Part shown: piece after piece, positions 12,493 to 28,127 of the stretch
Layout of the letters: each line of letters opens with the position of its first letter
Numbering within the stretch: position 1 is the first letter of the stretch
Origin: a virus
Reading direction: 5' to 3' (one strand)
Virus record (IMG/VR): IMGVR_UViG_3300044713_000275
Coordinates: 1 to 42,199 of that record
DNA length: 42,199 nucleotides
Program-made: the position numbers and the translations under genes
Notes under the pieces: model-generated
Databases searched by the model: none
What the model was told of the DNA's origin: nothing
Seen by the model: the letters and a program-made list of their open reading frames with translations, nothing else

Positions 12493-12561
12493 TAAAGTGC
12501 CTCACAGGGCGCTACAGCTTCGATTTCAGGTGGGGTCCGGCGCATGGGGCGGGGCTCAGGC

Positions 12562-12889: not shown

Positions 12890-12892
12890 AAA

Positions 12893-13114: not shown

Positions 13115-13410
13115 GTGGTGATGTTCCTGAAGCTCGATCGCATCTGCTGCTTAAACGCGGCGATCGCTTCAGGGTCGACTTCGAACTTGTCGCCGCGCTG
13201 CACGCGGTCGACGAATTCGCGCATCTCTTCCTCTTCGCTCTTGGCACCGGGCATGAAGTCGGCCGGCTTCCAGGGCTCAGGTCGGCGGTCTGGATCGCGG
13301 TTGATGTTGGCCAGCACCGAGCAGACAAGCGCGCCAGGGTAGATGCGCTCGCGCACCTGCTCGACTTCATCCTGCAGCAGCAGGTCAAACTCGCGCGGCG
13401 AGCAACTCAG
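13108..13410 (-). CDS. Tail assembly chaperone, -1 frame extension (gpT part of G/GT)
   Basis: The open stretch carries no ATG near its start, and its conserved beginning (RFGFTREEF, SPREFDLLL) lies in the -1 frame of the upstream gene, before and across that gene's stop. Downstream it reads ANINRDPDRRPEPWKPADFMPG, a signature of the T part of tail chaperones. Coordinates given start at the codon following the T-TTC-TGA site (13413-13407), a possible slip point where TTC re-pairs on TTT. The GTG at 13356 would drop the conserved region, so expression by frameshift as a G-T fusion is more likely. Confidence 0.65.
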   Translation of the reverse strand: MSCSPREFDLLLQDEVEQVRERIYPGALVCSVLANINRDPDRRPEPWKPADFMPGAKSEEEEMREFVDRVQRGDKFEVDPEAIAAFKQQMRSSFRNITTQ

Positions 13411-13886
13411 AAACTCTTCGCGTGTGAAACCGAATCGATTTCGCGCTCGAGCCCAGAGAGTTGTGATGCTGGGTCCTTCGACGGGTCCAGTGGCGCCGGC
13501 AGCTCTTCCAGCTCCGGCGCCGGCGCGTTTGGGGACACGTCCTTCGCCTTCGGCATGTAGGCTGCGAGCGCCTTCACCATCGCGATCGACACCTCGGCCG
13601 CGTTGCCGAAGTCGACCAGGGCGCCGAGTTCATCGAGTGTGTATGGCGCCTTCCAGCTCTTGTCGCTCTGCAGCTCGTGCAGCCCAGCCCACAGGCAGGC
13701 CAGCCACCGTTCCGGATCGAGCTGCAGGTCGATCTTTGCCCACACCTCGCCATCGAACAGCGAGTCGCCCGTCTGCTGCTTGTAGACGATCACGTTGTGA
13801 ATCGGGTACGCGATCGGCCGCACGCTGCCGCGGATCGTAACCGTCAGCGGCGCGCCAGTGATTTCTTTTTCGAGAACGTCAACCAT
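13407..13886 (-). CDS. Tail assembly chaperone, zero-frame protein (gpG-like)
   Basis: 159 aa. The N-terminus (MVDVLEKEITGAPLTVTIRG), the beta-rich first half and helical middle (DELGALVDFGNAAEVSIAMV) and the Pro/Ala-rich linker followed by LSGLEREIDS fit siphophage G-type chaperones, which coat the tape measure during tail assembly. It sits between the tail-tube and tape-measure genes, the expected place. Its last 30 or so codons overlap a conserved reading in the -1 frame (see the next gene), as expected for a programmed frameshift. No strong ribosome site beyond GAGAGACTG upstream. Confidence 0.72.
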   Translation of the reverse strand: MVDVLEKEITGAPLTVTIRGSVRPIAYPIHNVIVYKQQTGDSLFDGEVWAKIDLQLDPERWLACLWAGLHELQSDKSWKAPYTLDELGALVDFGNAAEVSIAMVKALAAYMPKAKDVSPNAPAPELEELPAPLDPSKDPASQLSGLEREIDSVSHAKSF

Positions 13887-13906
13887 TTTCAGTCTCTCCT
13901 GCTTTT

Positions 13907-14005
13907 CACCACAGAGTCACAGAGGCACGGAGGAAAATCTTGGAAGCGGCCCTTCCCCCGAAAACCCCAACCCGGTTTTCTCCGTGACTCTGCGCCTCTG
14001 TGGTG
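13907..14005. repeat. Long imperfect inverted repeat (CCACAGAG-type)
   Basis: The left arm 13907-13937 (begins CACCACAGAGTCACAGAG) and right arm 13976-14005 (ends CTCTGTGGTG) are nearly complementary, with a 38-base GC-rich spacer. It fills the gap between the tail-tube gene and the chaperone. Similar CACCACAGAG-type repeats are familiar as dispersed palindromic elements in bacterial genomes, so this may be a host-derived MITE/REP insertion. In the transcript it would form a long hairpin that could stabilise or stop the tail-tube message. Confidence 0.7.
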
Positions 14006-14020
14006 GCGAAGCCTTTTTTC

Positions 14021-14551
14021 TTACGACCAGGTCGCGGAGATGTTGCCGACGATCTTCAGCGTGCCCGAGAAGGTCATCGCCTTGTTGTATTCAACGCCGA
14101 ATTTGAAATCCTGCACATAGGCGGTGAACACAAATGTGGAACCGTCAGTGGTTGAGAGCTTCCAGAAGAACAGCGCCGACGAGCCCGCGGTCGAAATGTT
14201 CGAAAGCAAAGTCTGCGTGGTAGGGTCGGCCGGGTTGAGCACGCCGTCGAAGGTGATGGTGTCACCGTCGACCACGGTCTTCAGCCACTCTTTGAAAATG
14301 GTGGGCGAGTCGAGGTTAGTGATGTCGTCGAACTCGGCCTTGAAGCCCGAGAAGTTTACTTTCTTCAGCTGCGCGATGTTGGTGTAGCTCGCGCCGGTGG
14401 TTCCTCCGGAGGCCAGCTTCGAGCCGTAGCCGGGGAAAGCGATGGTTGTGCCGAAGAGTGCTGCACTGGCCGCAGCTGCGAGCCAGAATAGCAACACCTT
14501 GACGTGAGCCGAAAGCAGCGCAGCGACGAAGACGAACAGAGCGAGGTGCAT
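14021..14551 (-). CDS. Tail tube protein paralogue with hydrophobic N-terminal leader
   Basis: 176 aa. From about residue 40 on (PGYGSKLASGGTTG, IAQLKKVNFSG, VVDGDTITFDGVLNPAD, FTAYVQDFKFGVEYNKAM) it parallels the neighbouring 143-aa tail protein. Residues 1-37 are a strongly hydrophobic leader (LALFVFVAALLSA, VLLFWLAAAASAALF). The leader must be translated: AAGGAG lies seven bases before the ATG at 14551, and no start codon lies between the leader and the conserved PGYGSK. A membrane or export leader on a tail-tube protein is highly unusual. Which paralogue builds the tube, and whether the leader is cleaved, is unknown. Confidence 0.8.
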   Translation of the reverse strand: MHLALFVFVAALLSAHVKVLLFWLAAAASAALFGTTIAFPGYGSKLASGGTTGASYTNIAQLKKVNFSGFKAEFDDITNLDSPTIFKEWLKTVVDGDTITFDGVLNPADPTTQTLLSNISTAGSSALFFWKLSTTDGSTFVFTAYVQDFKFGVEYNKAMTFSGTLKIVGNISATWS

Positions 14552-14594
14552 GGGTTTTCTCCTTGGGAACGGGAATCGTGAACGGGAATTTATT

Positions 14595-15026
14595 TCAGGC
14601 GTTGCCGGCCGGACCGGCTAAAGCTCCGGAGACGCGGATCTTCGCGCTGAAGCTGAGAAATTTGTTGTAGGCCACCGAGAAGGGCACAAACTCGATCACC
14701 AGGCCCTGAAACGTCCACTGGGTGCCGTCAGGCAACACCAGCTGAAAAAAATAAAGCTGCAGGCTGGCGTGCGCCGTGCCGAGCTGCAGGATCTGCGCAT
14801 TCGCCGGATCGAGCACGCCCTCAACGTTGATCTCGCCCGAGTCGACGCGCACCGCCAGCGGCCGCGAAAAATTGTCGGGCGTAAGAATGTTGGTCTGGTC
14901 GACGACCGTCTGCTTCGAGCCCTGCGGCACAATGCTCTTGAGCTGCGCCACCGCGCTAAAGCTGCCCACCGCGCCGCTGGGCGACATGAAGAGCTTCGAA
15001 CCGTAGCCTGGCCGCGTGTTCGTCAT
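14595..15026 (-). CDS. Major tail (tube) protein
   Basis: 143 aa, starting MTNTRPGYGSKLFMSPSGAV. The mixed-strand pattern and the QWTFQGLVIEFVPFSVAYNK/FLSFSAKIRVSG end are typical of siphophage tube proteins, and the position between the DUF3168-like protein and the chaperone is canonical. The ATG overlaps the preceding stop as ATGA. An upstream open extension is shadow sequence. It is followed by a paralogue of similar core length, so either gene might make the tube. Confidence 0.78.
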   Translation of the reverse strand: MTNTRPGYGSKLFMSPSGAVGSFSAVAQLKSIVPQGSKQTVVDQTNILTPDNFSRPLAVRVDSGEINVEGVLDPANAQILQLGTAHASLQLYFFQLVLPDGTQWTFQGLVIEFVPFSVAYNKFLSFSAKIRVSGALAGPAGNA

Positions 15027-15466
15027 GACGCTTCGGTGTAGAGCGCCTGCAGCCGCAAAAGCCTGCGGTAGATGTAGCCGGCGCCGCCCTGCTCGTACGG
15101 CTCGTCGTGATCCATGGTGACGTCGACGAACTGAATCGTGGTCTTGTCGGGCAGCGCGCCGGCGTTGAACGTCTTCATCAGGTAATCGCGCACCGCGTTT
15201 GAAAGTTGCTGCGCGGCCTGCGGCGTGTCGGCATAGCTGTCGAACTGGATCTCGCCATCGATCAGCGCGCTGATGCCATCGAGCGAGGCCTCGGCCGGCG
15301 GCGCCGATACGACGTTCAGCACCAGGTAGGGCCGCTGCGATTGCTTCATGGCAACATTGATGTAAATTGCCAGCGTGTTGGGCGGCGCCGGCGCCGGTGC
15401 CAGCAGGGAATTCACCGCCGCGGCCGGCGCTGCGATCAGAAGCGATGTGAGACCGGGCAACAGCAC
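15023..15466 (-). CDS. Tail terminator/completion protein (DUF3168-like)
   Basis: 147 aa beginning with GTG at 15466 (MLLPGLTSLLIAAPAAAVNS). The later part (PYLVLNVVSAPPAEASLDG, GEIQFDSYADTPQAAQQLSN, RDYLMKTFNAG) matches DUF3168-type proteins that cap the tail tube and connect it to the head. The first about 30 residues are hydrophobic and proline/alanine-rich. The gene starts four bases after the stop of the beta-helix gene and overlaps the tube gene (ATGA). Confidence 0.75.
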   Translation of the reverse strand: MLLPGLTSLLIAAPAAAVNSLLAPAPAPPNTLAIYINVAMKQSQRPYLVLNVVSAPPAEASLDGISALIDGEIQFDSYADTPQAAQQLSNAVRDYLMKTFNAGALPDKTTIQFVDVTMDHDEPYEQGGAGYIYRRLLRLQALYTEAS

Positions 15467-15469
15467 CGT

Positions 15470-17164
15470 TCACCGCACTCCCAGGCCGAGCAGTAGTTCT
15501 CTCAGTGAGAGGCCAGGAGTGCCAGAGATAGCCCCTTGAGAAGATTCGAAGGCCCCCGCATCCCACGCTCCGCTAGATGGCCTGGGGGTTACGACTCTGC
15601 CGCTATCCACCGCTTCCACAACGCCGTTGACCGTTTGCTGGGTGACGGAGTAGGTCGTGTCGCTGCACAGGCCGGAAAGCCCGCTGGTTCCGCACCCCGG
15701 AGTGGTGCTCGTAAGATTTGTTCCCACTCCGAAGCCCGTACAGTTTGCCGAGGTGCAGCCCGATGCCGGTGCGAACGGATAAGTGCCCGTGGTGGGATAG
15801 TAGGTTGAAGCGTTGGCGACGGAGATTCCAGTGTTAGGCGTGACCACGGCGCCCGGCGGTAAAGGATCGCCATTGGTTTGCGTAGTGATGGGCGCGGCGG
15901 ACGTGACGCAGAGGTTGTTCGCAAAATTGATGGTCCACACCAAGTCCGTTCCGTGGGCGAGTGCCGAGGCCAACGTAGCGCAGTATTGGGCCGTCCAGCG
16001 CACCGTATTGTTCCAAAAATAAACCGAGGAACCGGTCATCTGGCCGGCAGTGGAATTTTGAGGAATTTGCGGGCCATTCTCTCCAGCAGTTGTCGTCGAC
16101 CCCATGTCCCAGATGTTGTTGTAAACGTAATCCACTTCGTGCGTTCCGTTGCCGACCTGAAGGCCTTCTCCTGTGAAATTGCAGCAGATATAGTTGTCGT
16201 GAATGTTTGCCGTGGTGGTCCCGGAGCCATCGCCCCCGGCCAGGGCTCCTGTTGTCTCAATAGCGTTGGGGTGCGATGCGTTGCTGATGCTTCCGTCTTC
16301 AGACAAGAATGCGAAGTAGTTCCCGCTGATGTTCAGAGGGCCGTACGTCGTGGGGCCATGAAAGCAGTTGTTCCAATACACGCAGACGTTGTTGGTGAAG
16401 TTTCCCACCAGCCGGATTCCGCCGCCCGCGCACCCGGTGCCGGTGCCGCAATTGGCGCCTTCCCCGTCGAGGTTGTTGAACACGTTGTGGTCCAGGGCGC
16501 AATGAACGCACTGGGCGTTCCCAGCCCCGGCAAAGTCGGGTTGCCACCACATGTAATCGAGTTCCTGCGCGCTTCCGCCATGGGTCGAGGCGTGGAAGTA
16601 CAGGTTGGAGAGAGTCACATAATCAGCGTTGCTGGTCGAGTGGGCGAGCCCGCAGCACTGCTCCGTGCCGTTCCAGAAAAAATTCTCGATCTCGAACCAC
16701 TTAAAGGTCGTATATTGCGCACCAGCGCCGTCGAAGTAAAACACAAAGCTGCCGCTGGACCCCACCGCCGTGATTTGCGTGGATCCGAGATTGAAAACTG
16801 GACGATTCCATGACGAAGCGCAATTCGCCGTGTTGTACCATGTCGGGTCGCCGTCACCGTTGACGACGATCGGACTCCCGCTCGTGCCTGCATAGGACCA
16901 AGTGATCGGGAAATTCGAGACGGTCCACACGTCACATCCACGAACAATGATCGTGTCTCCCGCATGAGAGGTGTAGCTGCCTGTCCAGGTCGCCATGCCC
17001 GGAATGTGCGCCCAAGGCGTACTCTCTGAGGTTCCGTTATTCGAGTCGGAGCCAGAAGCGGCAACGTAGTAGGTGGTCGCGCCCCACAAAGGCAGGCTTG
17101 AGAAAAAGAAGGCTGCAACAGCTCTCAGCAGATTTCGGTGGGCGAATTTGCGGAGCAGGCTCAT
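15470..17164 (-). CDS. Secreted-type beta-helix protein in the structural operon
   Basis: 564 aa. A signal peptide is plain: basic start MSLLRKFAHRNLLRA, hydrophobic AVAAFFFSSLPL, and a likely cleavage after WGA. The rest has the repeating short strands of a right-handed parallel beta-helix (VTLSNLYFHAS, LDHNVFNNL, NISGNYFAFLS, NIHDNYICC, WNNTVRW), as in pectate lyases and many tailspikes. It has over twenty cysteines, many in close pairs (QCC, QCVHC, NCGTGTGC), suggesting disulfides formed outside the cytoplasm. The ATG at 17164 overlaps the preceding stop (ATGA). No catalytic residues can be assigned; polysaccharide binding or cleavage is a family-based guess. Confidence 0.72.
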   Translation of the reverse strand: MSLLRKFAHRNLLRAVAAFFFSSLPLWGATTYYVAASGSDSNNGTSESTPWAHIPGMATWTGSYTSHAGDTIIVRGCDVWTVSNFPITWSYAGTSGSPIVVNGDGDPTWYNTANCASSWNRPVFNLGSTQITAVGSSGSFVFYFDGAGAQYTTFKWFEIENFFWNGTEQCCGLAHSTSNADYVTLSNLYFHASTHGGSAQELDYMWWQPDFAGAGNAQCVHCALDHNVFNNLDGEGANCGTGTGCAGGGIRLVGNFTNNVCVYWNNCFHGPTTYGPLNISGNYFAFLSEDGSISNASHPNAIETTGALAGGDGSGTTTANIHDNYICCNFTGEGLQVGNGTHEVDYVYNNIWDMGSTTTAGENGPQIPQNSTAGQMTGSSVYFWNNTVRWTAQYCATLASALAHGTDLVWTINFANNLCVTSAAPITTQTNGDPLPPGAVVTPNTGISVANASTYYPTTGTYPFAPASGCTSANCTGFGVGTNLTSTTPGCGTSGLSGLCSDTTYSVTQQTVNGVVEAVDSGRVVTPRPSSGAWDAGAFESSQGAISGTPGLSLRELLLGLGVR

Positions 17165-17943
17165 TGATAGGCCACCGTGTAGCACTCGTAGGTGACCGAT
17201 GTCCCGTTCGTGGCCGCTGCAGCATAAGTCCCTGACGCACTTGTGACGATCTGGCTGGTCACCCCCGCTTCATTGCCGGAGTAGATGTCAGCCTGGCTTT
17301 CGCGGAGGGTGTAGCTTCCCGAACCTAGGAACGCATCTTCGCCCACCGCGGTATAAAACATTCCGCTCACAACAGTCGGATTCCCGCCGGTGGGCGTGAT
17401 CGAGTTGCAGGTCTGGCTCGTGGAGGCAGTTGTGACCCGAAGCAGAGCAGACGCGGCATTGAAGGACCAGGTGCCGCTCGTTCTGTGGTACTCACTCACG
17501 ATCACTGTGCTGCTGACGGGACTGGTTCCGAGGTTTGCCGTGATCGTGGTCACTCCAGAACCGATGGACAGGGAGACGTCCTCGCTGAAGTAGAAATTGC
17601 CGGTCGGGTCCTGGCCCGAAGCGAACTCGTTCACGTAGGTGCTGCTGCTGTTATCAGTGGTGAGCGACGGGGGCTGCGCGGCGTTGGTGTCGACCTTCTG
17701 AACGTCAACGGTCACCAGATTTCCCGCAGTGGGGGGGTAGCTGACCGCGCAGGTCGTGGTGGTATGGCAGTTTGCCTTGTTCCCACCGACATACGTGAAA
17801 GTTGGCCCCCCCCCGCCGCCCGAGGCCGGTCCGATCACGCCACCGCCAATGACGCGCCCCTGCTGCCAGCCGCCGCAGAGAAATGCGGCGACGGCGAGCA
17901 ACAGCATAAGCGCGAGCGAGACTCTGGTCTTACTGTTGGACAT
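17161..17943 (-). CDS. Secreted-type beta-rich hypothetical protein
   Basis: 260 aa from the ATG at 17943 (MSNSKTRVSLALMLLLAV), which is a typical signal-peptide start; hydrophobic residues run to about 26. A glycine-rich hinge (VIGGGVIGPASGGGGG) follows, then a Thr/Ser-rich beta domain (VTVDVQKVDTNAAQPPSLTT, FYFSEDVSLSIGSGVTTITA). Four cysteines are present. It overlaps the end of the 1534-aa gene by 14 bases and is coupled to the beta-helix gene. A GTG at 17955 is an alternative start. Function unknown; the three genes in a row form a set of exported proteins. Confidence 0.68.
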   Translation of the reverse strand: MSNSKTRVSLALMLLLAVAAFLCGGWQQGRVIGGGVIGPASGGGGGPTFTYVGGNKANCHTTTTCAVSYPPTAGNLVTVDVQKVDTNAAQPPSLTTDNSSSTYVNEFASGQDPTGNFYFSEDVSLSIGSGVTTITANLGTSPVSSTVIVSEYHRTSGTWSFNAASALLRVTTASTSQTCNSITPTGGNPTVVSGMFYTAVGEDAFLGSGSYTLRESQADIYSGNEAGVTSQIVTSASGTYAAAATNGTSVTYECYTVAYQ

Positions 17944-20900
17944 ATCGAATTGCACCCGAAGTCTGGCCGGTGCTCGAGAGCAGCAGGCAGACGTTGTCGG
18001 CCGCGGTGGCCGTTTTGAACACCCAGTTGCTGCCCGTTCCCTTCACCAGGCCGCTGTTCGCTGCAAAATTCCAGCCAGTCGCTGCGGTCGCGCCGCCGGC
18101 CATGCCCGCGGTGCCGGTGCCGCACGTGGTGACGGTGCCCTCGACCAGGGCGATGTTCTGCGCGGTCGCGCTGACCAGGTCGATGGAGCAGATGTAAGTC
18201 TGCTTCGACGCCGTTCCGGTGATGACCTGGCCGCTGGCGGTCAGGTTGATCACTGCCTGCGAGCCGGCGTTGGCCTGGCACGGATCGAGAACCGGAGCGG
18301 TGCCTCCGACTTGTGCAAGGTTCACCGACTGATTCGGCAGCAGCGCCAGAATCGGCGAGCTCGAGCTCAGCGTCGTCCAGTACGGCGTGACGCTGCCCGT
18401 GCCCGTGATCACCGTGGTGAGGTTGGCGCGGATCGCGACATAGCCCTGCAGCTGAATCAAGAACGCCTGGTTGGTGCTGGCGACGAAGGTGTAAGGGTTG
18501 GTGAGAGCCGCGAAGGTGTTTGGGTTGAGCACCTGCGCGGTCGGAATGGTCACCCAGTTGGTGTTGTCGTACGTGCCCTGGAAAGTGACGGCGCCGCCGG
18601 TGAGCGTGGTGGTTTGATCGAGCTGCACCAGCACCGAAGAAACGCCCGAGAGCTGTCCGATGGTCGTCGTGCCCGTCGGATATTGCAGCGTATTCACCGA
18701 AGTGCCGCTCGTCCAGGCCGCGCCGCTCTTGAACTGCACGCCAGGAAAGCTGAGCTGGTTGCCAGCCTGGTCAGCTTGCACCGCCATCGCCTGGCCGTTT
18801 GTGGGCGCCGGCGCAGAAGTGTTGTAGAGCGAGCCCGTGACCAGATCATTCGTCGGCGCCGTACCCGCACCTACGGTGGAATCGAGTGTGGCCGCGGCGT
18901 GCCCTTCAATCCCAACCATCGCGACACCTGAAGCCGCGGTGACCGTGGTCGTGCCGGCGACAGAGCTCAGATCCATTTGCGCGGCGTAGACGCTGCCTGT
19001 TGGGTTCACGGCCGTCCAGCCCCGCAGCGTGCCACTCACGTTCAGACCTGAATAGTCGGCGGAGCCGGGAACGGCAGAGCCGGTGGCAGAGGCCGCGGCG
19101 TTGCCGGCCGAGCCAGCCTTCACGTCGACCTGCAGGTTGCCGGAAGAGTCGAGCTGGAAGGGAAGTGTTTGTCCGGTGGTCGGCGTCGGCGCCGAAGAGT
19201 TGTAAATGCCGCCTGTGACCAGCGTCTTCGAGGGCGCGGTGGCTGGCGTAGTGCCGGCCATGTCGGCCGAGTCCTGCACGACGAATGTTCCGGTGCCGAC
19301 GACGGTGGCGTTCAGGTTGGCTGCAGTGGCTTGCGTGACGGCGATGGTTTGCGAGGCGGCAATGTTCACCGCGCCGATTGTGTTCGAGCCAGTGGGCAGC
19401 GCCGGCAGCGCGAGCACGTTCGCGTTCACGCCCAGCACTTCAGTTCCGGTCGGCGCCGTGCCCCAAGCCGAGAGCGCCGCGGTCAGGTCGTTGGTGCCGT
19501 CGCTGATGTTGGCGAACAGCGGATTCGTTTTCGAGAGTGCTGCGCCATTCACCGAAGCGACGTCGCTCAGCGCCAGGCCATGGTTGTCGAGCTGCACCGC
19601 CGAAGAGTGGCCCGCGGTGAGCGCGGAAGTCGTTCCGGTGTTGTTGTTGAAGACGCCGGCAACGTTCAGGTTGTTCGCCGGCGCGGCCGCGTTCTGCGCC
19701 GCATCGAGCGCAACGCCGGCGTTGCCCTGAATGTCGACAGATCCCACAGTGTTTGAGCCCGCGTTCAGCCCAACGTTCCACGTGCCCGACTGCGTGACCG
19801 CGGGCGTGTTGGTGATGAAGGCGTTCACGCCTGGCACCGTGACCGCGCCCGGCGAGGTTCCGTAATTACTGGGAGCGCCCAGCGCGCTGCCGCCCCAGGT
19901 GACCAGGTTGTTCGGCTGCGTGGCTGCGAAGCTCACCGAGATGGTGCCCGCGGTGGGATAGGTGCTGCAGGTGTAAGTGGCGACGTACTGATCGCCCGAA
20001 GGAGTCGTGGGGTTTACGGCTAGGTTTTGCGTCGAGTTGCCCGGAGTGAAGCTGATGGTGGCCTGCGCCGAAGTGTTCGGGCTGCCCGTGTTGGGCTGGT
20101 AGGCGAGCGCGATCTGGCAGCCCGAGGGCGAGCCAGTGATTGATGCGCCGGTAATTTGCAGAGTGCCATAGCCAGAAGCGCCGGGCAGCCGCACGGCCGA
20201 GCTCGTGGCCGTGCCTGTGGCCGCGGTGGCATTGAACAGCGTGGTGTAGAGCGAGATGGCCGTGCCGCCGACTTTGTTCAGGTTCACGAACATGTTGCGA
20301 TCGTTCGTGAGCTGCACGGCGCCGCCCTGCCCGCTCGAAAGGTTCGTGATGGAAGAGTTGTAGATGCCGCCGATCGCGGTGAAGCTCGTAGTGCCCTGGG
20401 TAAACGTTCCTTCGTCGGTCAGCGACGATCCGCCCGAGCTCGAGCAACCGGTTTTGCAATTCACTTCCACGTAGCCGGATCCGTCGACCGGCTGCAGCAC
20501 GTTGGCATTCACGCCCATAACTTCAGTGCCCGTGGGCGCAGTGCCCCAGGCCGAGAGTGCCGCGGTCAGGTCGTTGGTGCCGTCAGTGATGTTCGAGAAA
20601 AACGGATTTGTCTTTGTATTGGCGGATCCGGTCGGACCGACTTCAAAAACTCCTGAACCTGAGACCGTTGGAGTGTTGGTGATGAAAGCGTTCACGCCCT
20701 GCACGGCCACCGCGCCTGGCGATGTGCCGTAGTTCGACGGAGAGCCGAGAGCAGAGCCGTTCAGCTGCGTGGTGTTGATTGTCCAGGGGCCAGAGGCCTG
20801 CGTGACGGCGCCGATGGTGTTGCTGCCGGCGTTGAGCCCAACGTTCCAGGTGCCAGACTCCGAAACGGCCGGCGTGTTGGTGATGAAAGCATTTACGCCC

Positions 20901-22534
20901 TGCACTTCCACCGCGCCCGGCGATGTGCCGTAGTTGGAAGGCGCGCCCAGCGCCGTTCCTGCCAGCTTGTTGAAGTTCACGAACATGTTGCGATCGTTCG
21001 TGAGCTGCACGGCGCCAGCCTGGCCCGTGGTCAGGTTTGTGATCGACGTGCTATAGATGCCGCCGATCGCAGTGAAGCTGGTCGTGCCCTGGGTGAAGGC
21101 GGCTTCGTCAGCGATCGAGGATCCTCCGGAGCTCGAGCAACCGGTTTTGCAATTCACTTCCACGTAGCCGGATCCGTCGACCGGCTGCAACACGTTGGCA
21201 TTCACGCCCATGACTTCAGTGCCAGTGGGCGCAGTGCCCCAGGCCGAGAGCGCCGCGGTCAGGTCGTTGGTGCCGTCAGTGATGTTCGAGAAAAACGGAT
21301 TTGTTTTTGTGTTGGCGGATCCAGTCGGGCCGACTTCAAAAACTCCGGAGCCCACAACCGTTGCATTCAGGTTTGCGGCCGTCGCCTGGCTCACCGAGAG
21401 CGCGCCCTGGTTAGAAGCGATCGCCACCGGTACCGACGCGCTCATGGTGGTCTGTCCGAGCGCGAGAGCCGAGCCCCCAACTTTGTTGAGGTTCACGAAC
21501 ATGTTGCGATCGTTCGTGAGCTGCACGGCGCCAGCCTGGCCAGTCGTCAGGTTTGTGATCGACGTGCTGTAGATGCCGCCGATCGCAGTCAGGCTCGTGG
21601 TGCCCTGGGTGAAAGTGCCTTCGTCAGCGACCGAGGATCCGCCCGAGCTCGAGCAACCGGTTTTGCAATTCACTTCGATGTAGCCAGAGCCATCGGCGGG
21701 CGCCAGCAGGTTCGCGTTGATGCCCAGCACCTCAGTGCCCGTGGGTGGCGTGCCCCAGGCCGAGAGCGCCGCGGTGAGGTCGTTGGTACCGTCGGTGATG
21801 TTCTCGAAAAACGGATTTGTCTTGGTATTGGCGCCGGTGGTCGGGCCGACTTCAAAAACTCCGGAGCCGGTGAAGGCGCCCACCGTGTTCGAGCCCGCGT
21901 TGAGCCCTACGTTCCACGTACCAGACTCGCTGGCCGGCACGGCCGACTGGTTGCTCGCGATCACGACCGGAGAGCTGTTGGCCATGACAGCCTGACCGTT
22001 CGGGTTGGAGCCGGCGCAGCCGGTTTTGCAATTCACTTCCACAAAGCCAGAACCGTCGAGCGGTGAAACGATGGTGCTCGAGGCGGATCCGCTCGCGCCA
22101 GGATTGTTCGTGTAACCGAGCAGCACGACATAGACTGAGCCGCTGCCCGTGATGGTCGGCGTGAGCTGGCCGAGCTGCGTGGGCGTGGTCGCGCTGGCGC
22201 TGGCATATTCGCCGGCCGCGGCGCAGGAGCCCACTGTCGAACTGGTGATGATGCCGCCAGTGGTGAAGCCCGAGCCTACCGAAGAGTCGAGCGACAGCGA
22301 GCAGGTTGAGACCGTGCCGATCGGAACGAAGGCGATTTGCCAGTAGCGCAGGCCGGCGACGGTGAAGCCGCCGGTGGGCGTGGAGTTCGCGTTGAACGTC
22401 CAACTCAGCGCCAGCTGTGCGGGCGAGTTCGCGTAAGGAATGGGCGTGCCACTCTGCGCCTCGCCGCCCGGCACCAGGCACAGCAACAAGAACAGCAGCA
22501 GGCCGATCGGCAGAAAATAGCTGGTGCGTTTCAT
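17930..22534 (-). CDS. 1534-aa secreted-type repetitive adhesin/fibre-like protein
   Basis: The largest gene. Residues 1-27 are a textbook signal peptide (MKRTSYFLPIGLLLFLLLCL, cleavage near EAQ). The body is Gly/Ser/Thr/Asn-rich beta sequence with repeated blocks: SNITDGTNDLTAALSAWGTA, GYVEVNCKTGC, TAIGGIYSTSITNLTTGQAG, NDRNMFVNLNKV and SGTWNVGLNAGSN recur three or more times. Cysteine pairs (NCKTGC) recur with the repeats. Such modules suit a long fibre or adhesin. The signal peptide is at odds with cytoplasmic virion assembly. A GGAAA ribosome site precedes the ATG. No enzyme motif is visible. It could be a virion fibre, or a surface protein expressed by the lysogen. Confidence 0.75.
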   Translation of the reverse strand: MKRTSYFLPIGLLLFLLLCLVPGGEAQSGTPIPYANSPAQLALSWTFNANSTPTGGFTVAGLRYWQIAFVPIGTVSTCSLSLDSSVGSGFTTGGIITSSTVGSCAAAGEYASASATTPTQLGQLTPTITGSGSVYVVLLGYTNNPGASGSASSTIVSPLDGSGFVEVNCKTGCAGSNPNGQAVMANSSPVVIASNQSAVPASESGTWNVGLNAGSNTVGAFTGSGVFEVGPTTGANTKTNPFFENITDGTNDLTAALSAWGTPPTGTEVLGINANLLAPADGSGYIEVNCKTGCSSSGGSSVADEGTFTQGTTSLTAIGGIYSTSITNLTTGQAGAVQLTNDRNMFVNLNKVGGSALALGQTTMSASVPVAIASNQGALSVSQATAANLNATVVGSGVFEVGPTGSANTKTNPFFSNITDGTNDLTAALSAWGTAPTGTEVMGVNANVLQPVDGSGYVEVNCKTGCSSSGGSSIADEAAFTQGTTSFTAIGGIYSTSITNLTTGQAGAVQLTNDRNMFVNFNKLAGTALGAPSNYGTSPGAVEVQGVNAFITNTPAVSESGTWNVGLNAGSNTIGAVTQASGPWTINTTQLNGSALGSPSNYGTSPGAVAVQGVNAFITNTPTVSGSGVFEVGPTGSANTKTNPFFSNITDGTNDLTAALSAWGTAPTGTEVMGVNANVLQPVDGSGYVEVNCKTGCSSSGGSSLTDEGTFTQGTTSFTAIGGIYNSSITNLSSGQGGAVQLTNDRNMFVNLNKVGGTAISLYTTLFNATAATGTATSSAVRLPGASGYGTLQITGASITGSPSGCQIALAYQPNTGSPNTSAQATISFTPGNSTQNLAVNPTTPSGDQYVATYTCSTYPTAGTISVSFAATQPNNLVTWGGSALGAPSNYGTSPGAVTVPGVNAFITNTPAVTQSGTWNVGLNAGSNTVGSVDIQGNAGVALDAAQNAAAPANNLNVAGVFNNNTGTTSALTAGHSSAVQLDNHGLALSDVASVNGAALSKTNPLFANISDGTNDLTAALSAWGTAPTGTEVLGVNANVLALPALPTGSNTIGAVNIAASQTIAVTQATAANLNATVVGTGTFVVQDSADMAGTTPATAPSKTLVTGGIYNSSAPTPTTGQTLPFQLDSSGNLQVDVKAGSAGNAAASATGSAVPGSADYSGLNVSGTLRGWTAVNPTGSVYAAQMDLSSVAGTTTVTAASGVAMVGIEGHAAATLDSTVGAGTAPTNDLVTGSLYNTSAPAPTNGQAMAVQADQAGNQLSFPGVQFKSGAAWTSGTSVNTLQYPTGTTTIGQLSGVSSVLVQLDQTTTLTGGAVTFQGTYDNTNWVTIPTAQVLNPNTFAALTNPYTFVASTNQAFLIQLQGYVAIRANLTTVITGTGSVTPYWTTLSSSSPILALLPNQSVNLAQVGGTAPVLDPCQANAGSQAVINLTASGQVITGTASKQTYICSIDLVSATAQNIALVEGTVTTCGTGTAGMAGGATAATGWNFAANSGLVKGTGSNWVFKTATAADNVCLLLSSTGQTSGAIRYVQQ
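20268..21865 (-). repeat. Three ~390-bp repeats inside the 1534-aa gene
   Basis: Blocks at about 20268-20655, 20962-21357 and 21478-21865 share long near-identical stretches, for example the segment around ACGAACATGTTGCGATCG and the segment around CAACCGGTTTTGCAATTCAC. Eye comparison of the first two gives well over 90 percent identity across about 230 bp. They encode the NCKTGC ... DRNMFVNLNKV module. High DNA identity implies recent duplication or ongoing homogenisation, so the copy number may vary between isolates and may be mis-assembled. Confidence 0.85.
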
Positions 22535-22565
22535 GGGGTTGTTTCCTTTTCTGGCGCGGCGAGGC

Positions 22566-22949
22566 TCAGCTGGCGCCGCCGGCGTTCTGATTCATCTCGA
22601 AGCAAAACATTCGGAGCTCGATGTGACGTTCGTCGGGGTCTTCGATGTACTCGATCTGAAAAGTTCGCGTGAGATTGCCCTCGTTGAAGCTGAGGGTCAT
22701 GCTTTCCTGCACGCCCAACTGATAGGGAATCGTGACCACGTCGGTCGACCGCTGCGCGAACTGTTGCGCCTTGTCGAGCTCCTGGCCGCCGATCGGCCGC
22801 ATAGCCGCCCAGCTCGTGCAAAACGGATTCGCCAGACTACCCGCGGTGGGGTTCGCGGGATTGTTCAGCGTGACCTGGCGGTTCATCGCGCCAGGCCCGG
22901 TGTATTGACCGGGCCCGGGCGGCCGCGAGCTGAGGCGAGGCAGCGGCAT
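22566..22949 (-). CDS. Head closure / head-tail adaptor protein
   Basis: 127 aa. A small beta protein with NRQVTLNNP, WAAMRPIGGQELDKAQQFAQ, VVTIPYQLGVQESMTLSF, TFQIEYIEDPDERHIELRMFCFEM, the pattern of SPP1 gp16/HK97 gp7-type head-tail joining proteins that seal the portal channel. The ATG at 22949 overlaps the preceding TAA (TAATG). It is separated from its usual neighbour, the tail terminator, by 7 kb of secreted-type genes. Confidence 0.75.
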   Translation of the reverse strand: MPLPRLSSRPPGPGQYTGPGAMNRQVTLNNPANPTAGSLANPFCTSWAAMRPIGGQELDKAQQFAQRSTDVVTIPYQLGVQESMTLSFNEGNLTRTFQIEYIEDPDERHIELRMFCFEMNQNAGGAS

Positions 22950-23389
22950 TAGTTGTACTGCACGACCGCCAGCTTGATCAGGTTCGAGCTGCATGCGGCG
23001 ATCTGGATCACGCCGCCCGACTGTAGCCAGCCTTGCGCAAACTTCATCTGGATGGCTGAGATCGAGCTCGCCGGCAACGAGTAGGCGGTCAGCGTGGTGT
23101 TGGTTCCACCGTAGGGATCGGCAATCGTGTTGATGGTGATCGCGTGCGCCGACGTGTCGGTGTTTTGCATCAGCAGCACGTCACGGCCGGTGTAGGTGTA
23201 CTGGTTGCCGTTGGTCGTGTCGCACGCCGTCATGGTGACGGTGAGATTGCCGGCGGAAACTTGCGCGTTGTTTTGCACCAGCACGGCCGGCGTGAGAGCG
23301 GTGAAGGTTGCGAAGGCCGAAATGCTGGTGATGACCAGCAGCAGCCCAATGCAGGAAGCTTTTTGCAGAAGCGAGAAACGGTTTTTCAT
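22949..23389 (-). CDS. Signal-peptide protein within the connector genes
   Basis: 146 aa. Residues 1-28 form a signal peptide (MKNRFSLLQKASCIGLLLVI, cleavage near SAFA). The mature part is a small beta domain (VLVQNNAQVSAGNLTVTMTA, YTYTGRDVLLMQNTDTSAHA, ITINTIADPYGG), similar in feel to phage decoration or joining proteins. AGGAGA precedes the ATG at 23389, so the leader start is well supported. It sits exactly where an HK97-type joining protein is expected, and the mature domain could be that protein with a leader added. Three cysteines besides the leader. Function inferred only from position. Confidence 0.68.
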   Translation of the reverse strand: MKNRFSLLQKASCIGLLLVITSISAFATFTALTPAVLVQNNAQVSAGNLTVTMTACDTTNGNQYTYTGRDVLLMQNTDTSAHAITINTIADPYGGTNTTLTAYSLPASSISAIQMKFAQGWLQSGGVIQIAACSSNLIKLAVVQYN

Positions 23390-23407
23390 GGGTGAGTGTT
23401 CTCCTGT

Positions 23408-23590
23408 TTATTTCAGCATTTGAGAAATCAGCCGCGCGTGCGCGGCAGCTTGCAAATCTTCAGTCTGAGAGCGAGCCATACGTTGAAACTCGGCTTCGGC
23501 CTCAGCAGCCGCGGGATCTCGCGCGTCGCGCAATGTCTTCCAGCGCTCCTCGGCTTCCTTCAATTGCTCGGCTGTGATCGTCATCGTCAT
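23408..23590 (-). CDS. Short helical hypothetical protein
   Basis: 60 aa if started at the ATG 23590 (62 from the GTG 23596 that overlaps the upstream stop). It is Ala/Glu-rich and helical (EQLKEAEERWKTLRDARDPA), probably a coiled coil. Tandem Met-Thr codons open the gene, leaving three candidate starts. It lies between the connector gene and the signal-peptide gene. Unknown function; small helical proteins here are common in HK97-like phages. Confidence 0.6.
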   Translation of the reverse strand: MTMTITAEQLKEAEERWKTLRDARDPAAAEAEAEFQRMARSQTEDLQAAAHARLISQMLK

Positions 23591-23592
23591 CG

Positions 23593-24816
23593 TCACTGCG
23601 TCAGGTTGGCCGCGGGGCCGAAGCCGAGATCTCGCACCGCCCAGATCAGCGCGTCGACGCCGTGCGGAATGGCGGTCACACTGCCCGACGCGACCGCCTC
23701 ACGGTTGAAATAGAAATGCGACAGCATGATGTAGATCGCCATCTCGATCTCTTCCGGGATGTTGATGATTCGCGTGTATTCACTGGGCTGCTGCGGCGGG
23801 CTGGGCATGACGCCCTGGTAAGGTCCGAGGCATCGCCAGGCGTCGACCGAGTTGTCGACGGAGATCGCGCCGAGCGCGGTTGCGAATGTGGGATTCGTCG
23901 ACTGGCTGATGAACTCTGCGACGATGCAGGTTTGCAGGTTGCCGTTTGGATCGATCACAACGTCGTAGAGAATGTATTCAGTCTGGTTGGCGTATTCGCC
24001 GCTGATGCCGCCTTCGCCATCGCCAGGCGCGCCCGCGGGTTCGCCGGTAAGGCACGTCCACGAAGCCGTGTTGTCGACGGTGACGGCGCCGGGAGTGGTC
24101 GGCCAGGTCGGCTCTTTCGTTCCCGTCTGGCCGCCCGAGACGGTTTGCATTTGCACGTTGTCGTTGGGATCGATCAGGTACGCGTATTGCGCGATGGTTT
24201 CTTCGGGCTCCCAGCCTGGCGAAGACTCTTCGGTTGCGGTTTGCGCGCCGACGGCGAGCTGATCCTGCACGTAACCCGCGGTGAAAAAGATGGAACAGGT
24301 GTTCGCGCCCATCGTCGACACGGGCCAGCGCTGGCCGGGCAGCGGCAGAATCCGGCCGGTCGCGATGTCGGGAACAAAGTCCTGGAAGGGAACCAGCACG
24401 ACTTTCTTTCCGTTCGTATCGATGTATTCGACCGAGGTGATGGCGGTGACCGGGTTCTTCAGCGCGCGCACCTCGAACGGATTCATCATCTGGTTCTGCA
24501 GGCCACCAATCGCCGGGTAGGGATAGCTGGCGATCGGGCCGTAGCCGAAGTAAAACGGGAAAGCGGCGCCGAACAGCGGCGCGTACGGCGATTGGAAATA
24601 AGGGAAGAACGGAAAGCCGTCCTGGTACTGCACGAAATTCCGCGGCGCGAGCGTGAGCCCGGTGCAGCGCTCGATGTAGCGCCGCGCTGCTTTGACGCAA
24701 CGCTGCACGACCAGGTCGTCGGCCGTGACGCCGACCGGCACCTTGAGCCAGTTCTTGGCGTCGACCAGTGAGATGGGCTCGTTGGCCGGCAACGTGAGTT
24801 CGAGGACGGTAGACAT
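23593..24816 (-). CDS. Head-tail connector (gp6-like) with inserted decoration domains
   Basis: 407 aa. The ends match a gp6-type connector: ISLVDAKNWLKV and RCVKAARRYIERCTGL at the N-terminus, and EIEMAIYIMLSHFYFNREAV with IPHGVDALIWAVRDLGFG at the C-terminus. The usual family is about 100-200 aa. The extra length is a middle region (about 190-340) with two copies of a domain with pattern TGTKEPTWPTTPGAVTVDN/WTCLTG and STNPTFATALGAISVDN/WRCLG. The same kind of module is in the tail-tip protein. The insert probably projects from the neck of the particle. Confidence 0.75.
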   Translation of the reverse strand: MSTVLELTLPANEPISLVDAKNWLKVPVGVTADDLVVQRCVKAARRYIERCTGLTLAPRNFVQYQDGFPFFPYFQSPYAPLFGAAFPFYFGYGPIASYPYPAIGGLQNQMMNPFEVRALKNPVTAITSVEYIDTNGKKVVLVPFQDFVPDIATGRILPLPGQRWPVSTMGANTCSIFFTAGYVQDQLAVGAQTATEESSPGWEPEETIAQYAYLIDPNDNVQMQTVSGGQTGTKEPTWPTTPGAVTVDNTASWTCLTGEPAGAPGDGEGGISGEYANQTEYILYDVVIDPNGNLQTCIVAEFISQSTNPTFATALGAISVDNSVDAWRCLGPYQGVMPSPPQQPSEYTRIINIPEEIEMAIYIMLSHFYFNREAVASGSVTAIPHGVDALIWAVRDLGFGPAANLTQ

Positions 24817-24818
24817 GT

Positions 24819-25019
24819 TTAGCTCTGAGCTTTTCGGTCGTTGCGCTGCATCGCGCGCCGCTGCCGCCGCGACAACATGGGGAATTGCACAGCCAGCGGC
24901 GACTTGATCGGGCCACCGTCTTCGTTGCGGACGAGCATGCGCACCAGAGGACTTTTCCGAAGCAGCGGCTCCGGATCCGTGGGCGACTGAGCTTCAGTTA
25001 TTTCGAGGTCTGTGATCAT
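24819..25019 (-). CDS. Small hypothetical protein after the capsid terminator
   Basis: 66 aa from the ATG at 25019 (MITDLEITEAQSPTDPEPLL) with a basic tail (SRRQRRAMQRNDRKAQS). It lies between the major capsid protein terminator and the connector. The open frame continues upstream into the capsid gene as shadow only. No motif recognised; perhaps a small head or joining protein. Confidence 0.5.
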   Translation of the reverse strand: MITDLEITEAQSPTDPEPLLRKSPLVRMLVRNEDGGPIKSPLAVQFPMLSRRQRRAMQRNDRKAQS

Positions 25020-25027
25020 TTTCGTTT

Positions 25028-25073
25028 GAAAAAGTGAGCTGAGGGCCACGGATGCGGGTTCGTGGCCCTCAGC
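25028..25073 (-). terminator. Rho-independent terminator after the capsid gene
   Basis: A perfect 13-bp stem (25038-25050 with 25061-25073, CGTGGCCCTCAGC arm) with a 10-nt loop, followed on the minus strand by TCAC and a T-run (25033-25028). It lies 20 bases after the capsid stop and would end or reduce transcription after the most abundant head protein, giving a gradient to the connector genes. Confidence 0.85.
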
Positions 25074-25092
25074 CCGCACAACCACGAGAGGG

Positions 25093-26484
25093 TTAGCTCG
25101 CGGCTTGCTGCAACAGCGCGAACGCGGCCGGCTGAATGCGCTGGCCGTCAGTACGCAGGAAGGCCTGGAAGCCCACCTGGTGGTTCGGCATGTAGAGCTC
25201 GTTGAACCGAACCATGGTGATTCCACCGATCTCGCGGACGATGTATTTCGCGAAGTCGCCGAACAGCATGGTGTATTTCGACGCCATCGCGCCGCTTTCG
25301 CTGGCGCCCTGGGTCCACTGCTGCATGTCGGCATTCCAGTCGTACCCGTAGCCGTAGATCTTGTCGGGCACGCCCTGGGCGATGGAGACTTCCCACAGCG
25401 GCCGGCCATATTTGTCTTTCAGCTTGCGGAGGTAATCGAACACCGACCAGTGCGCCATGAACTTCGCGTTCACGCGGTACATGGGATCGAGCTCGGCGAT
25501 CAGGTTGGCCAGATCGTCGCTGCCGATCGAGTTCGAACCGTCGACCGACGCGCCGCCATCGTTGCTGGCAGAGCCGACCGCGGTGACCACCAAAGGCGAG
25601 GCATCGTTTTCGATGGCCGTGAGAATGCCGTTCGGTTGGCCCGTGCCGCTGCCGCTGGTATAGCCCAGGTTGGTGATGCGAGCCAGGCGGATGGCGAACT
25701 GCTCGGAGAGCCATGCCTCCAGATCGAAGGCGGAATCCTGCAGCAGCTGCACGCTGAGCAGAACCTGCTTCGAGCTGGCCAGGTACGCATTGAATTGCAC
25801 GTTCCCGAACGCGGGGTTCACTTGCGACACCGGATTCGATTCGGCAACCCAGTTGCCGACGTTTGCCGTGTCGTCTCCGGTGGGCCAGTTCAACACGTTG
25901 CCCGTCGAAGTGTTCAGCACTCGCGCGTTTCTGCGGATGCCGCCGAAGGAGATCAGCTTGCGCTCAATCTCACGCTGGAAGCCGATCGGCACCAGGTAGT
26001 AGCCGTCGGTGGCGCTGGTCGCGTCGCCCAGGCCTGCATAGGCGCGGGACTCGAGCGCCAGGCACTCCTCGAGGATCGAATCGGGTTTCGAGTTCTTCGA
26101 GCGCATGTGGCGCCAGAAGGCTTTGCGGTACTCCTGTGAGTTCCGCATCTCGAAATAGGTGCGCTGTTCCTCGTTGAAGAACTCGCGGCTCTCCATTGAA
26201 TTGTCGAACGGCGTCAGCTTGCGGCTTCCACCAGCGGCCGGATCTGTGACCGGTTGCCCCGCGGGCGGCGCCGTCACCGAACGCAATTCACTGTCGAGAG
26301 TCGACTGCGCCTCGAGAGCGTCGATCTGATCTTTCATCGAGCGCTGTTCTGCGTCGAGCTGTTTGTAGCGTTTCTGAGCCTCGGCGTTCCAGCGTGTGGG
26401 CTCGGTGAGATCGTTCATTTCGTCGACGAGCTTGGCGCGCTTTTTGCGCAGCTCGAGAGCTTCCTGCTTAAAATCACGTGCCAT
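25093..26484 (-). CDS. Major capsid protein (HK97 fold) with N-terminal scaffold domain
   Basis: 463 aa. The first about 65 residues are a coiled-coil (ALELRKKRAKLVDEMNDL ... LDAEQRSMKDQIDALEAQ), the delta/scaffold domain usually removed by the prohead protease; the linker has SRKLTPFDNSMESR. The core is typical of HK97 capsids: GYYLVPIGFQREIERKLISF, LNWPTGDD, SSKQVLLSVQLLQDSAFDLE, TSGSGTGQPNGIL, VNAKFMAHWSVFDYLRKLKD, FGDFAKYIVREIGGITMVRF. GAGGTG precedes the ATG. A terminator follows the stop. Confidence 0.95.
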   Translation of the reverse strand: MARDFKQEALELRKKRAKLVDEMNDLTEPTRWNAEAQKRYKQLDAEQRSMKDQIDALEAQSTLDSELRSVTAPPAGQPVTDPAAGGSRKLTPFDNSMESREFFNEEQRTYFEMRNSQEYRKAFWRHMRSKNSKPDSILEECLALESRAYAGLGDATSATDGYYLVPIGFQREIERKLISFGGIRRNARVLNTSTGNVLNWPTGDDTANVGNWVAESNPVSQVNPAFGNVQFNAYLASSKQVLLSVQLLQDSAFDLEAWLSEQFAIRLARITNLGYTSGSGTGQPNGILTAIENDASPLVVTAVGSASNDGGASVDGSNSIGSDDLANLIAELDPMYRVNAKFMAHWSVFDYLRKLKDKYGRPLWEVSIAQGVPDKIYGYGYDWNADMQQWTQGASESGAMASKYTMLFGDFAKYIVREIGGITMVRFNELYMPNHQVGFQAFLRTDGQRIQPAAFALLQQAAS

Positions 26485-26636
26485 GGTGACACCTCAGATG
26501 TGGAGTTTTGTTCGGAGCACGCAGCCGAGGCCCGCGGCTCGCGGGCACGTGCGCATCGCCGCTGCTGCACCGTGAGCTCCTGGCTCGAGGCCCCGTTGGG
26601 CCGTGCAGCGCGACGGCAGAACTTTGAAGAAAAGAT

Positions 26637-27131
26637 CTAGCTGATCGTAAAGTTGGTGCCGGCCGGGTTGCAGTACCAGGCGCCGTTATAGGCGGTGAGC
26701 GTGACGGCATCGCCAGCTGAGCCGCCGCTGGTGGCAATGTGATGCACGCCGTTGATTCCGCTGGCGGGCGTGGTGATGGTGTGAGCGTGCCCGCTGGTGT
26801 CGATGATCTTCAGCTCCTGGCCATCATTTCCACCGTTGGCCGGGCTGCCGGCAACAGGGGCGGCCAGCGTAAGAGCAGCAACGCCCGCGGCAGTGATGAC
26901 CACTTTGCCGTGCGTGATGCTGATGACGCCGGCGCCGGTCGCAGAGTGGAGTTCAATGCCGGCGAACTCCTGGTCGGCGTAGGGGCCGAATGTGCCCAGG
27001 GACTGATCCATCGGCGAGGCCGTGGTGCCGGTGAAGGTGAGAGCGGTGCCGCCGATAACTGCCAGCGCTAACAGCGCTGCCAGCCAGCCCGCGGGATGAA
27101 CGAATAGAGCGAGAGCAGCAAAGGGTAGCAT
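26637..27131 (-). CDS. Decoration-like head protein with hydrophobic leader
   Basis: 164 aa, placed between protease and capsid. From about residue 45 the sequence (HGKVVITAAGVAALTLAAPV, GQELKIIDTSGHAHTITTPA, GDAVTLTAYNGAWYCN) matches a widespread phage head-decoration-type beta domain. Residues 1-40 are hydrophobic (FAALALFVHPAGWLAALLALAV). AAGGAGAAA precedes the ATG at 27131, supporting the leader start; an internal ATG at residue 41 (MDQSLG) has no ribosome site. Like the tail-tube paralogue it is a virion-type protein with a membrane leader. Confidence 0.75.
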   Translation of the reverse strand: MLPFAALALFVHPAGWLAALLALAVIGGTALTFTGTTASPMDQSLGTFGPYADQEFAGIELHSATGAGVISITHGKVVITAAGVAALTLAAPVAGSPANGGNDGQELKIIDTSGHAHTITTPASGINGVHHIATSGGSAGDAVTLTAYNGAWYCNPAGTNFTIS

Positions 27132-27159
27132 TGAGGTTTCTCCTTGTTGGTTGGTTCCT

Positions 27160-28017
27160 TCAGTCGAGTTCGGACTTCAGCGCATTGGCTCGCGCCCTTG
27201 CGTGTTCGAGGCTCAGATCGATCGAGCGCTGGCACGCGCAATTCGTTTGGTCGCCGCAGGCCTGCTGATCGTCAGGACAGCCGGCGCAGTTGCCATCACG
27301 GCAGGAGCGGCAGTCGCATTCGCAGCCGCCAGCCTGGGATGTGCGGGCGCTGCGTTTGTTTTCGCAACGCGAACAAGCGTCGCAGCGGCAGCTGCAGGCC
27401 ATTTCTTCATCATCGCGTTTCAGCGCGCGCGCCAGCATACGGCTGCGCAGCTCAGGAGTCATACCGCTAACGCGACGCAGCTCTTGCAGCAGCGATCGCG
27501 CGCCCACGCTGGTGCCTTCGTAAGCGGGAAATGTCACCGGGCCGACGTCATAGAGCGAACCGATCTCTTCGATTTCGCGCGTGTAGGTCGTCATTTTTCC
27601 GTCTGAGCTTTCCTCTTCGCGCCAGGCCTGTTTCGAAACCTGAAAGCTGAAGCTGCAGCCGGTGACGTCTTTGCGATCGACGAAGCAACGCACGTCCTGG
27701 GCGACGCCGGTGCGCGAGTCGAGCGCCGCGTCGTAGCTGAGGCCCTTGTTGTCTTCGCGCATTTGCAGTGTGTTGTTTTCGGTGCGCGCCAGAACCTTGT
27801 TCGGGTCGTGATTGAAAAGGCAGCGCACATCTTGCCGCTCTCGCAGCACGCGGGCGAAGGCGCCAGGCTTGATGGTTTCGATCCACCGCATGCCGGTGTC
27901 TTCGTAGAGCACGTACTCTTCGTTGAAGACGGCCGCGTATCCCTCGAGCGCGGGCTTGGCATCGTCGCCTGCAGCGCGAACCTGCGCACCTTTTACGAAT
28001 CGGCGTTCTGCAATCAT
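27160..28017 (-). CDS. Prohead protease (HK97 family) with cysteine-rich tail
   Basis: 285 aa. The protease core (EGYAAVFNEEYVLYEDTGMR, IKPGAFARVL, DVRCLFNHDP with His70, VTGCSFSF with the likely nucleophile Ser122, VTFPAYEGTSV) cleaves scaffold residues during head maturation. The tail from about residue 207 is unusual: some 60 residues with 14 cysteines in CxC, CxxC and CxxxxC spacings (ACSCRCDACSRC, CECDCRSC, CAGCPDDQQAC), able to bind several zinc ions. A near-perfect AGGAGGAAGC precedes the ATG. The tail is not part of the usual protease family. Confidence 0.9.
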   Translation of the reverse strand: MIAERRFVKGAQVRAAGDDAKPALEGYAAVFNEEYVLYEDTGMRWIETIKPGAFARVLRERQDVRCLFNHDPNKVLARTENNTLQMREDNKGLSYDAALDSRTGVAQDVRCFVDRKDVTGCSFSFQVSKQAWREEESSDGKMTTYTREIEEIGSLYDVGPVTFPAYEGTSVGARSLLQELRRVSGMTPELRSRMLARALKRDDEEMACSCRCDACSRCENKRSARTSQAGGCECDCRSCRDGNCAGCPDDQQACGDQTNCACQRSIDLSLEHARARANALKSELD

Positions 28018-28127
28018 TTGCTTCCTCCTGGTTTTGCCGGCTGAAGACGCGGATCGCCGGGGCGTGGCGCTCTGGGAGCTCGCGGGGCACGCGGCGCGCG
28101 TGGATAGAACTGTGTCGATTTCCCCAT
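28014..28127 (-). CDS. 37-aa PRAP-repeat micro-protein
   Basis: A short ORF not obvious in routine calls: ATG at 28127 overlaps the preceding stop as TGATG, and its stop overlaps the protease ATG (ATGA). It encodes MGKSTQFY followed by PRAPRAPRAPRAPRPG and a PAKPGGSK end. The tight coupling on both sides favours a real gene; the ribosome site of the protease lies inside it, so it could also be just a leader that couples protease translation. Function unknown. Confidence 0.5.
   Translation of the reverse strand: MGKSTQFYPRAPRAPRAPRAPRPGDPRLQPAKPGGSK

Follow-up and report, generated by a model that had tools for sequence, protein, structure and literature searches.

In a 42,199-nt stretch of DNA from an uncultured virus (IMG/VR record IMGVR_UViG_3300044713_000275; the whole stretch is called the window below), six genes of a siphophage-like structural operon on the minus strand encode proteins with a hydrophobic leader at the N-terminus, and two kinds of leader can be told apart. 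The operon runs TerL, portal, prohead protease, DECO, major capsid protein, adaptor, SP1, head closure (Hc1), E6/E5/E4, tail terminator, TTP1 and TTP2, followed by a gene in the tail-chaperone position, the tape-measure gene and the distal tail genes. The accepted view is that tailed phages build their virions in the cytoplasm from start to finish. We give about an even chance to a reading in which this operon has two membrane-using side branches, an exported set comprising SP1, E6, E5 and E4 and a tethered pair comprising DECO and TTP2. A first-pass annotation had proposed a leader on each of the six proteins, naming the genes by their 3′ ends on the minus strand (22949, SP1; 17930, E6; 17161, E5; 15470, E4; 14021, TTP2; 26637, DECO); the sequence bears out each of the six, and the same leaders recur in relatives. 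These relatives, a clade of soil phages found by scanning IMG/VR, are metagenomic sequences labelled L003, L008 and so on, and kinship among them inflates the counts given here.

SP1, E6, E5 and E4 have classical n-h-c Sec signal peptides, with a positive n-region, a hydrophobic core and small residues at −3 and −1, as judged by a rule-based scan and alignments. The first-pass annotation had seen textbook signal peptides on several of the six; the TTP2 and DECO leaders are not of that classical kind, and the TTP2 leaders and the window's DECO leader have no positively charged n-region. The portal, major capsid protein, adaptor, head closure, terminator, TTP1 and tape measure carry no leader. 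Strong ribosome sites had been claimed for the leader starts of TTP2, SP1 and DECO, and we located them: the Shine-Dalgarno (SD) sequence is AAGGAG for the leader Met codons at 14551 (TTP2) and 27131 (DECO) and AGGAG for that at 23389 (SP1); the E6 leader Met at 22534 has AAAGGAAA. No SD was found for E5 or E4, which likely start at ATG 17943 and ATG 17164, slightly downstream of the mechanically listed GTG codons; these ATG starts yield the textbook signal peptides MSNSKTRVSLALMLLLAVAA and MSLLRKFAHRNLLRAVAAFFFSSLPLWGA, respectively. The same 14-nt E6/E5 overlap as in the window is found in L003. A crude leader rule flagged three of 48 structural genes taken from lambda, HK97 and Psul1, and no head, neck or tube protein among them had a convincing signal peptide.

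Export is best supported for SP1 and E6. An SP1 signal peptide with its SD occurs in ~30 related IMG/VR phages, and 28 of 30 signal-bearing members have the cysteine pair C56/C133, against none of ~8 signal-less ones (signal-less, pair-less SP1 is encoded by L021, L060–L062, L082 and the second L054 copy). In the E6 N-domain, pair A (78,104) is found in 13 of 18 homologues and pair B (29,45) in the other 5 of 18, never as a lone cysteine and never together, and the pair type has switched at least four times on a phage tree built from three short proteins. Because all-or-none pairing of this type is a mark of disulfides, and thus of an oxidising compartment, there is strong sequence evidence that both proteins are exported to such a compartment. 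The proposals that proteins of this structural operon are exported and carry paired cysteines are upheld to that extent; the cysteine claim does not extend to the bodies of TTP2 and DECO. The L054 copies of SP1 stand in tandem (9959–10405 and 10452–10814), one signal-bearing and one signal-less.

A signal peptide is present in every E6 homologue whose N-terminus lies on the contig, including the distant homologues of L073, L082 and L085, where its sequence is quite different. Mean identity in E6 is 57% for the signal peptide versus 46% for the mature domain, the reverse of SP1 (40% versus 58%). The E6 N-domain is modeled as a beta-sandwich. Its best solved-structure match is XepA of the Bacillus prophage PBSX (6i56; Z 8.6 over 98 residues, little above unrelated rows), and the next matches include phage cement proteins (Z 6.4–7.6), so that the likeness to XepA and cement proteins is suggestive only. 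Among the cement proteins, GP4 (8h89), KHP40 (7dou) and Pam1 (7eel) score Z 7.2–7.6; E6 differs from them by its signal peptide and by cysteine pairs that alternate and are of disulfide type. E6 also contains repeats, and neither E6 nor E4 gave a convincing family match; the bodies of the E proteins are hypervariable. Between head closure and tail terminator, L042 (1588–1725) and, less clearly, L021 (2438–2575) have mini open reading frames (ORFs) in which E6 is reduced to hardly more than its signal peptide.

That the bodies are structural in type, as first supposed, is supported for TTP2, whose body matches the tail-tube family PF06199 (28.8 bits versus a curated cut-off of 23.8), and for SP1, whose body is akin to the ‘tail protein’ families phrog_38030 and phrog_16194. 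Direct profile matches of SP1 to these families are weak, and the relation is stronger via the L060 protein (E 2.5e-18 and 4.5e-9, respectively); those family members encountered have neither a signal peptide nor the cysteine pair. The SP1 structure model matches phage proteins of ~115 residues (E ~3e-5), and a fold search of the PDB gave nothing significant. L046 encodes a large signal-bearing E protein (11137–14328) with an SP1-like C-terminal domain, a fusion that ties SP1 and the E proteins to one place. For DECO, the window protein has no Pfam or PHROG match, and its decoration label comes from position only.

The leaders of TTP2 and DECO are built differently. In the tail-tube comparison, 12 of ~24 phages, the window counted, have a TTP2 leader, and what is added to an ordinary siphophage major tail-tube body (PF06199, phrog_158) is a segment of 34–62 residues. 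None of these leaders has a Lys or Arg among residues 1–12, and their 569 residues include no acidic one. Hydrophobic stretches are split by frequent His-Pro or His-Gly, there is a Lys region, and the leader ends ..(L)FG-TT at the body. DECO leaders, found in 15 phages of the first set and 4 more in a later scan, are alike in build and end, and that of the window has no Lys or Arg in the n-region. A direct hhalign comparison of the two leader families recovered nothing beyond the end motif common to both (8 columns, P 8e-6); the common HP/HG and FGT motifs suggest either shared origin or shared constraint. Cysteine is absent from leadered TTP2 bodies and occurs just once in 12 of the 15 DECO bodies that follow a leader. 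Lacking paired cysteines, these bodies are better read as tethered to a membrane than as exported, and the hairpin-like build of the leaders suggests a tether that would leave the body in the cytoplasm. Export of all six proteins by a uniform mechanism, as the first-pass annotation would have it, is not supported, since two leaders form an uncharged, anchor-like module on bodies without a disulfide signature.

Both leaders come and go among relatives. Leaderless TTP2 (in L021, L030, L040, L044 and others) begins SD-Met-(A/T)TIAYPGYG or similar, whereas leadered forms read ..FG-TTIAYPGYG, the leader sitting directly ahead of the body. Likewise, leaderless DECO starts MTQITAQ and leadered DECO reads ..GTFITAQ; the position of the former initiator Met is Gly in aligned leadered forms. 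The DECO leader is present in L008 and others and absent in L037, L040, L041 and L043. On the tree, the TTP2 leader has changed state at least five times and the DECO leader at least twice. Synonymous differences outnumber non-synonymous ones in TTP2 leader codons (13 versus 6 and 14 versus 11), indicating purifying selection. The open third frame in the leader DNA was dismissed as a signal, being expected of hydrophobic GC-rich codons. A second, shorter type of DECO leader in L036 (8094–8618) and L106 (3960–4487) reads MITRL(V/I)NQF..LL..TKF-MTQITA and keeps the old initiator Met inside.

A survey of the same slots in related phages, suggested by the first-pass annotation, showed that leaders and signal peptides recur in conserved positions. 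Most relatives retain the gene order of adaptor, SP1, Hc1, E proteins, terminator, TTP1 and TTP2, the L040/L041/L044 group having its signal-bearing E genes after the terminator instead, and the finding of the same leaders again in independent relatives exceeds chance. The operon reads as a single late-type unit with stop/start overlaps, and a scan of 13000–28500, restricted to certain promoter types, turned up nothing promoter- or terminator-like beyond chance expectation. Scans of GTDB genomes with TTP2 and SP1 turned up nothing close, the sole match being a distant SP1 of Amycolatopsis that lacks the signal; phage isolates searched for TTP2, SP1, E6, DECO and TerL gave no relative beyond a 23% tail-protein match. 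The host is a guess, Acidobacteriota. A literature search, which subscription papers largely escaped, found no account of a tail-tube or decoration protein with a signal peptide. In L021 (2133–2790), the E-protein slot is occupied instead by an ORF on the opposite strand together with a small helix-turn-helix ORF of LuxR type, as read by eye from the sequence.

Under the reading with two side branches, SP1, E6, E5 and E4 would be made late, exported by Sec, presumably relieved of their signal peptides and folded with disulfides outside the cytoplasm. DECO and TTP2 would be held at the inner membrane by an uncleaved or late-cleaved hydrophobic tether, their bodies most likely facing the cytoplasm, while the core particle (portal, major capsid protein, adaptor, head closure, terminator, TTP1 and tape measure) would assemble there as usual. 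The exported beta-sandwich and fibre-like proteins could then make up an accessory layer, added to particles at cell exit, or could act on the envelope at release. Bodies are ~50–85% identical between leadered and leaderless relatives, which implies a partner that can be reached in both cases; the virion is the simplest candidate and probably the binding partner in leadered and leaderless phages alike. A more elaborate version, two-compartment virion assembly, in which accessory virion proteins are secreted, oxidised outside and added during or after lysis while TTP2 and DECO are staged on the inner membrane via a shared leader module, strikes us as rather doubtful. Several points weigh against the two-branch reading. 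Virion association of the exported proteins is something we infer. For a tube protein needed in high copy, a leader fits tube assembly poorly unless it is removed. L051 and one L054 copy (L054a) have an SP1 signal peptide without the cysteines, which also weakens the notion that signal-peptide loss and cysteine loss are always coupled. Finally, the SP1 and E6 models are of moderate quality (predicted local distance difference test scores of 73 and 81), and their fold matches are generic beta-sandwiches.

The strongest rival is a XepA-like envelope role, in which the exported proteins would act on the envelope during the lytic phase, by de-energising the membrane, supporting lysis or masking receptors against re-adsorption, and would never enter the virion. 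XepA, the top solved-structure match of the E6 N-domain, is likewise a late phage beta-sandwich protein; it is exported past the cytoplasmic membrane during PBSX development and is missing from mature particles (PMC6834076). A late operon with no promoter-like site of its own for these genes would suit such a role. However, chance matches reach scores close to this Z of 8.6, and the cement proteins GP4, KHP40 and Pam1 fall within ~1.5 Z of it. XepA moreover lies in a lytic cassette and has no sequence relation to E6, which sits between head closure and tail terminator and has a Sec signal peptide and disulfide signatures; the genes as a group occupy head-neck slots and do not stand with a lysis cassette, and the signal-less SP1 in the same slot of L021 could not reach the periplasm via Sec. 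We regard this role as possible but clearly less probable than the two-branch reading. The first-pass annotation had offered lysogen surface proteins or an unusual virion or host-envelope decoration; the latter is the better half of that proposal, whether the decoration would be of the virion or of the envelope. Lysogenic conversion by moron-like surface proteins made from a prophage seems improbable. Lambda Lom, an outer-membrane protein encoded at the end of the tail operon, is a precedent for an exported protein in or beside such an operon, and the hypervariable E-protein bodies would be in keeping with surface exposure of this kind. Lom, however, is accessory and comes last in its operon, whereas here mid-operon genes of structural type, TTP2 and DECO among them, bear the signals; unlike morons, they lie in fixed slots of one late-type operon, without promoter- or terminator-like sites above chance and with stop and start codons that overlap structural genes, and the positions of SP1 and the E6 N-domain are conserved over the clade.

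The leaders of TTP2 and DECO might instead be hydrophobic segments retained in the virion that act in the next host, as the megatron N-termini of RcGTA and R4C, which are thought to insert in the target membrane (PMC7296036, PMC10276861). Such N-termini on tail tips of gene transfer agent (GTA)-like phages are a reminder that a hydrophobic segment on a structural protein need not mean export, and the window has a protein of that kind, a central-fibre (J) type tail-tip protein (3101–5203, minus strand) with two hydrophobic N-terminal segments of its own. Yet the megatron is a tail-tip protein, whereas the leaders here are on the tube and the capsid decoration, and we know of no precedent for a megatron-like segment on a high-copy tube or capsid-surface protein. 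In addition, through gain and loss the leaders vary in presence from phage to phage, while the tail-tip protein retains its segments. We therefore hold penetration of the next host to be quite unlikely for TTP2 and DECO. Least credible is an annotation artefact in which ribosomes would pass over the leader starts and initiate at a codon further inside the gene. Leaderless relatives whose body starts at Met are what such an artefact would lead one to expect, but a strong SD precedes the leader Met in leadered genes and the body Met in leaderless ones, the window has no internal ATG with an SD close to where the body begins, and the synonymous excess falls within the leader itself.

If the two-branch reading is right, export or tethering of structural-operon proteins would mean either that parts of the virion are finished outside the cytoplasm or that a class of late proteins of the envelope has arisen from virion parts and been overlooked. 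Disulfides could aid particle survival in soil. For phage annotation more broadly, a signal peptide alone does not mark a gene for lysis, exclusion or lysogenic conversion. The natural leaderless homologues (~50–85% identity) make the question directly testable.

Table 1. Coordinates of the leadered genes, their leaders and neighbouring structural genes in the window.
Feature	Position	Strand	Evidence
DECO, capsid-decoration-type protein	26637..27131	-	Position between prohead protease and major capsid protein; hydrophobic N-terminal leader
DECO leader, residues 1-35 (MLPFAALALFVHPAGWLAALLALAVIGGTALTFTG)	27027..27131	-	SD AAGGAG at 27140-27145, upstream of ATG 27131
Major capsid protein, leaderless	25093..26484	-	tblastn relatives
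Head-tail adaptor Ad1, leaderless	23593..24816	-	phrog_40, E 7e-13
SP1, small predicted beta-sandwich protein, classical signal peptide	22949..23389	-	SD and signal peptide in relatives; model and fold search
SP1 signal peptide MKNRFSLLQKASCIGLLLVITSISAFA	23309..23389	-	
Head closure Hc1, start MPLPRLSSRPP, leaderless	22566..22949	-	PF05521, E 2.8e-7; phrog_25, E 1e-7; TAATG overlap with SP1 stop
E6, 1534 aa, predicted exported; repeats, conserved beta-sandwich domain at the N-terminus	17930..22534	-	Signal peptide and alternative Cys pairs
E6 signal peptide MKRTSYFLPIGLLLFLLLCLVPGGEA	22457..22534	-	
E5, predicted exported, family not recognised	17161..17943	-	ATG 17943 overlaps E6 stop
E4, predicted exported, Cys-rich (18 Cys)	15470..17164	-	ATG overlaps E5 stop
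Tail terminator, leaderless	15023..15466	-	phrog_347, E 1e-6
TTP1, leaderless tail-tube paralogue (MTNTRPGYGSKL...)	14595..15026	-	phrog_158, E 1.5e-11; ATGA overlap
TTP2, major tail-tube-type protein, hydrophobic leader	14021..14551	-	PF06199 above cut-off; phrog_158, E 1.5e-13
TTP2 leader, residues 1-34 (MHLALFVFVAALLSAHVKVLLFWLAAAASAALFG)	14450..14551	-	SD AAGGAG at 14559-14564

Three further features of the locus stand apart from the leaders. The prohead protease (27160–28017, minus strand; PF04586) has a very Cys-rich C-terminal tail, with 17 Cys in total and 20 in the L044 homologue. Residues ~202–331 of the adaptor are similar to part of the tail-tip protein (E ~1e-5), an inserted domain common to head and tail genes. 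Past the tape-measure gene, an opposite-strand cassette (8674–9689, plus strand) encodes a methyltransferase-like protein and a membrane protein; the same cassette codes for signal-bearing or membrane proteins in L003 (14574–15355, minus strand), L017 (10753–11286, minus strand) and L019 (12480–13186, minus strand), and is likely a moron site.

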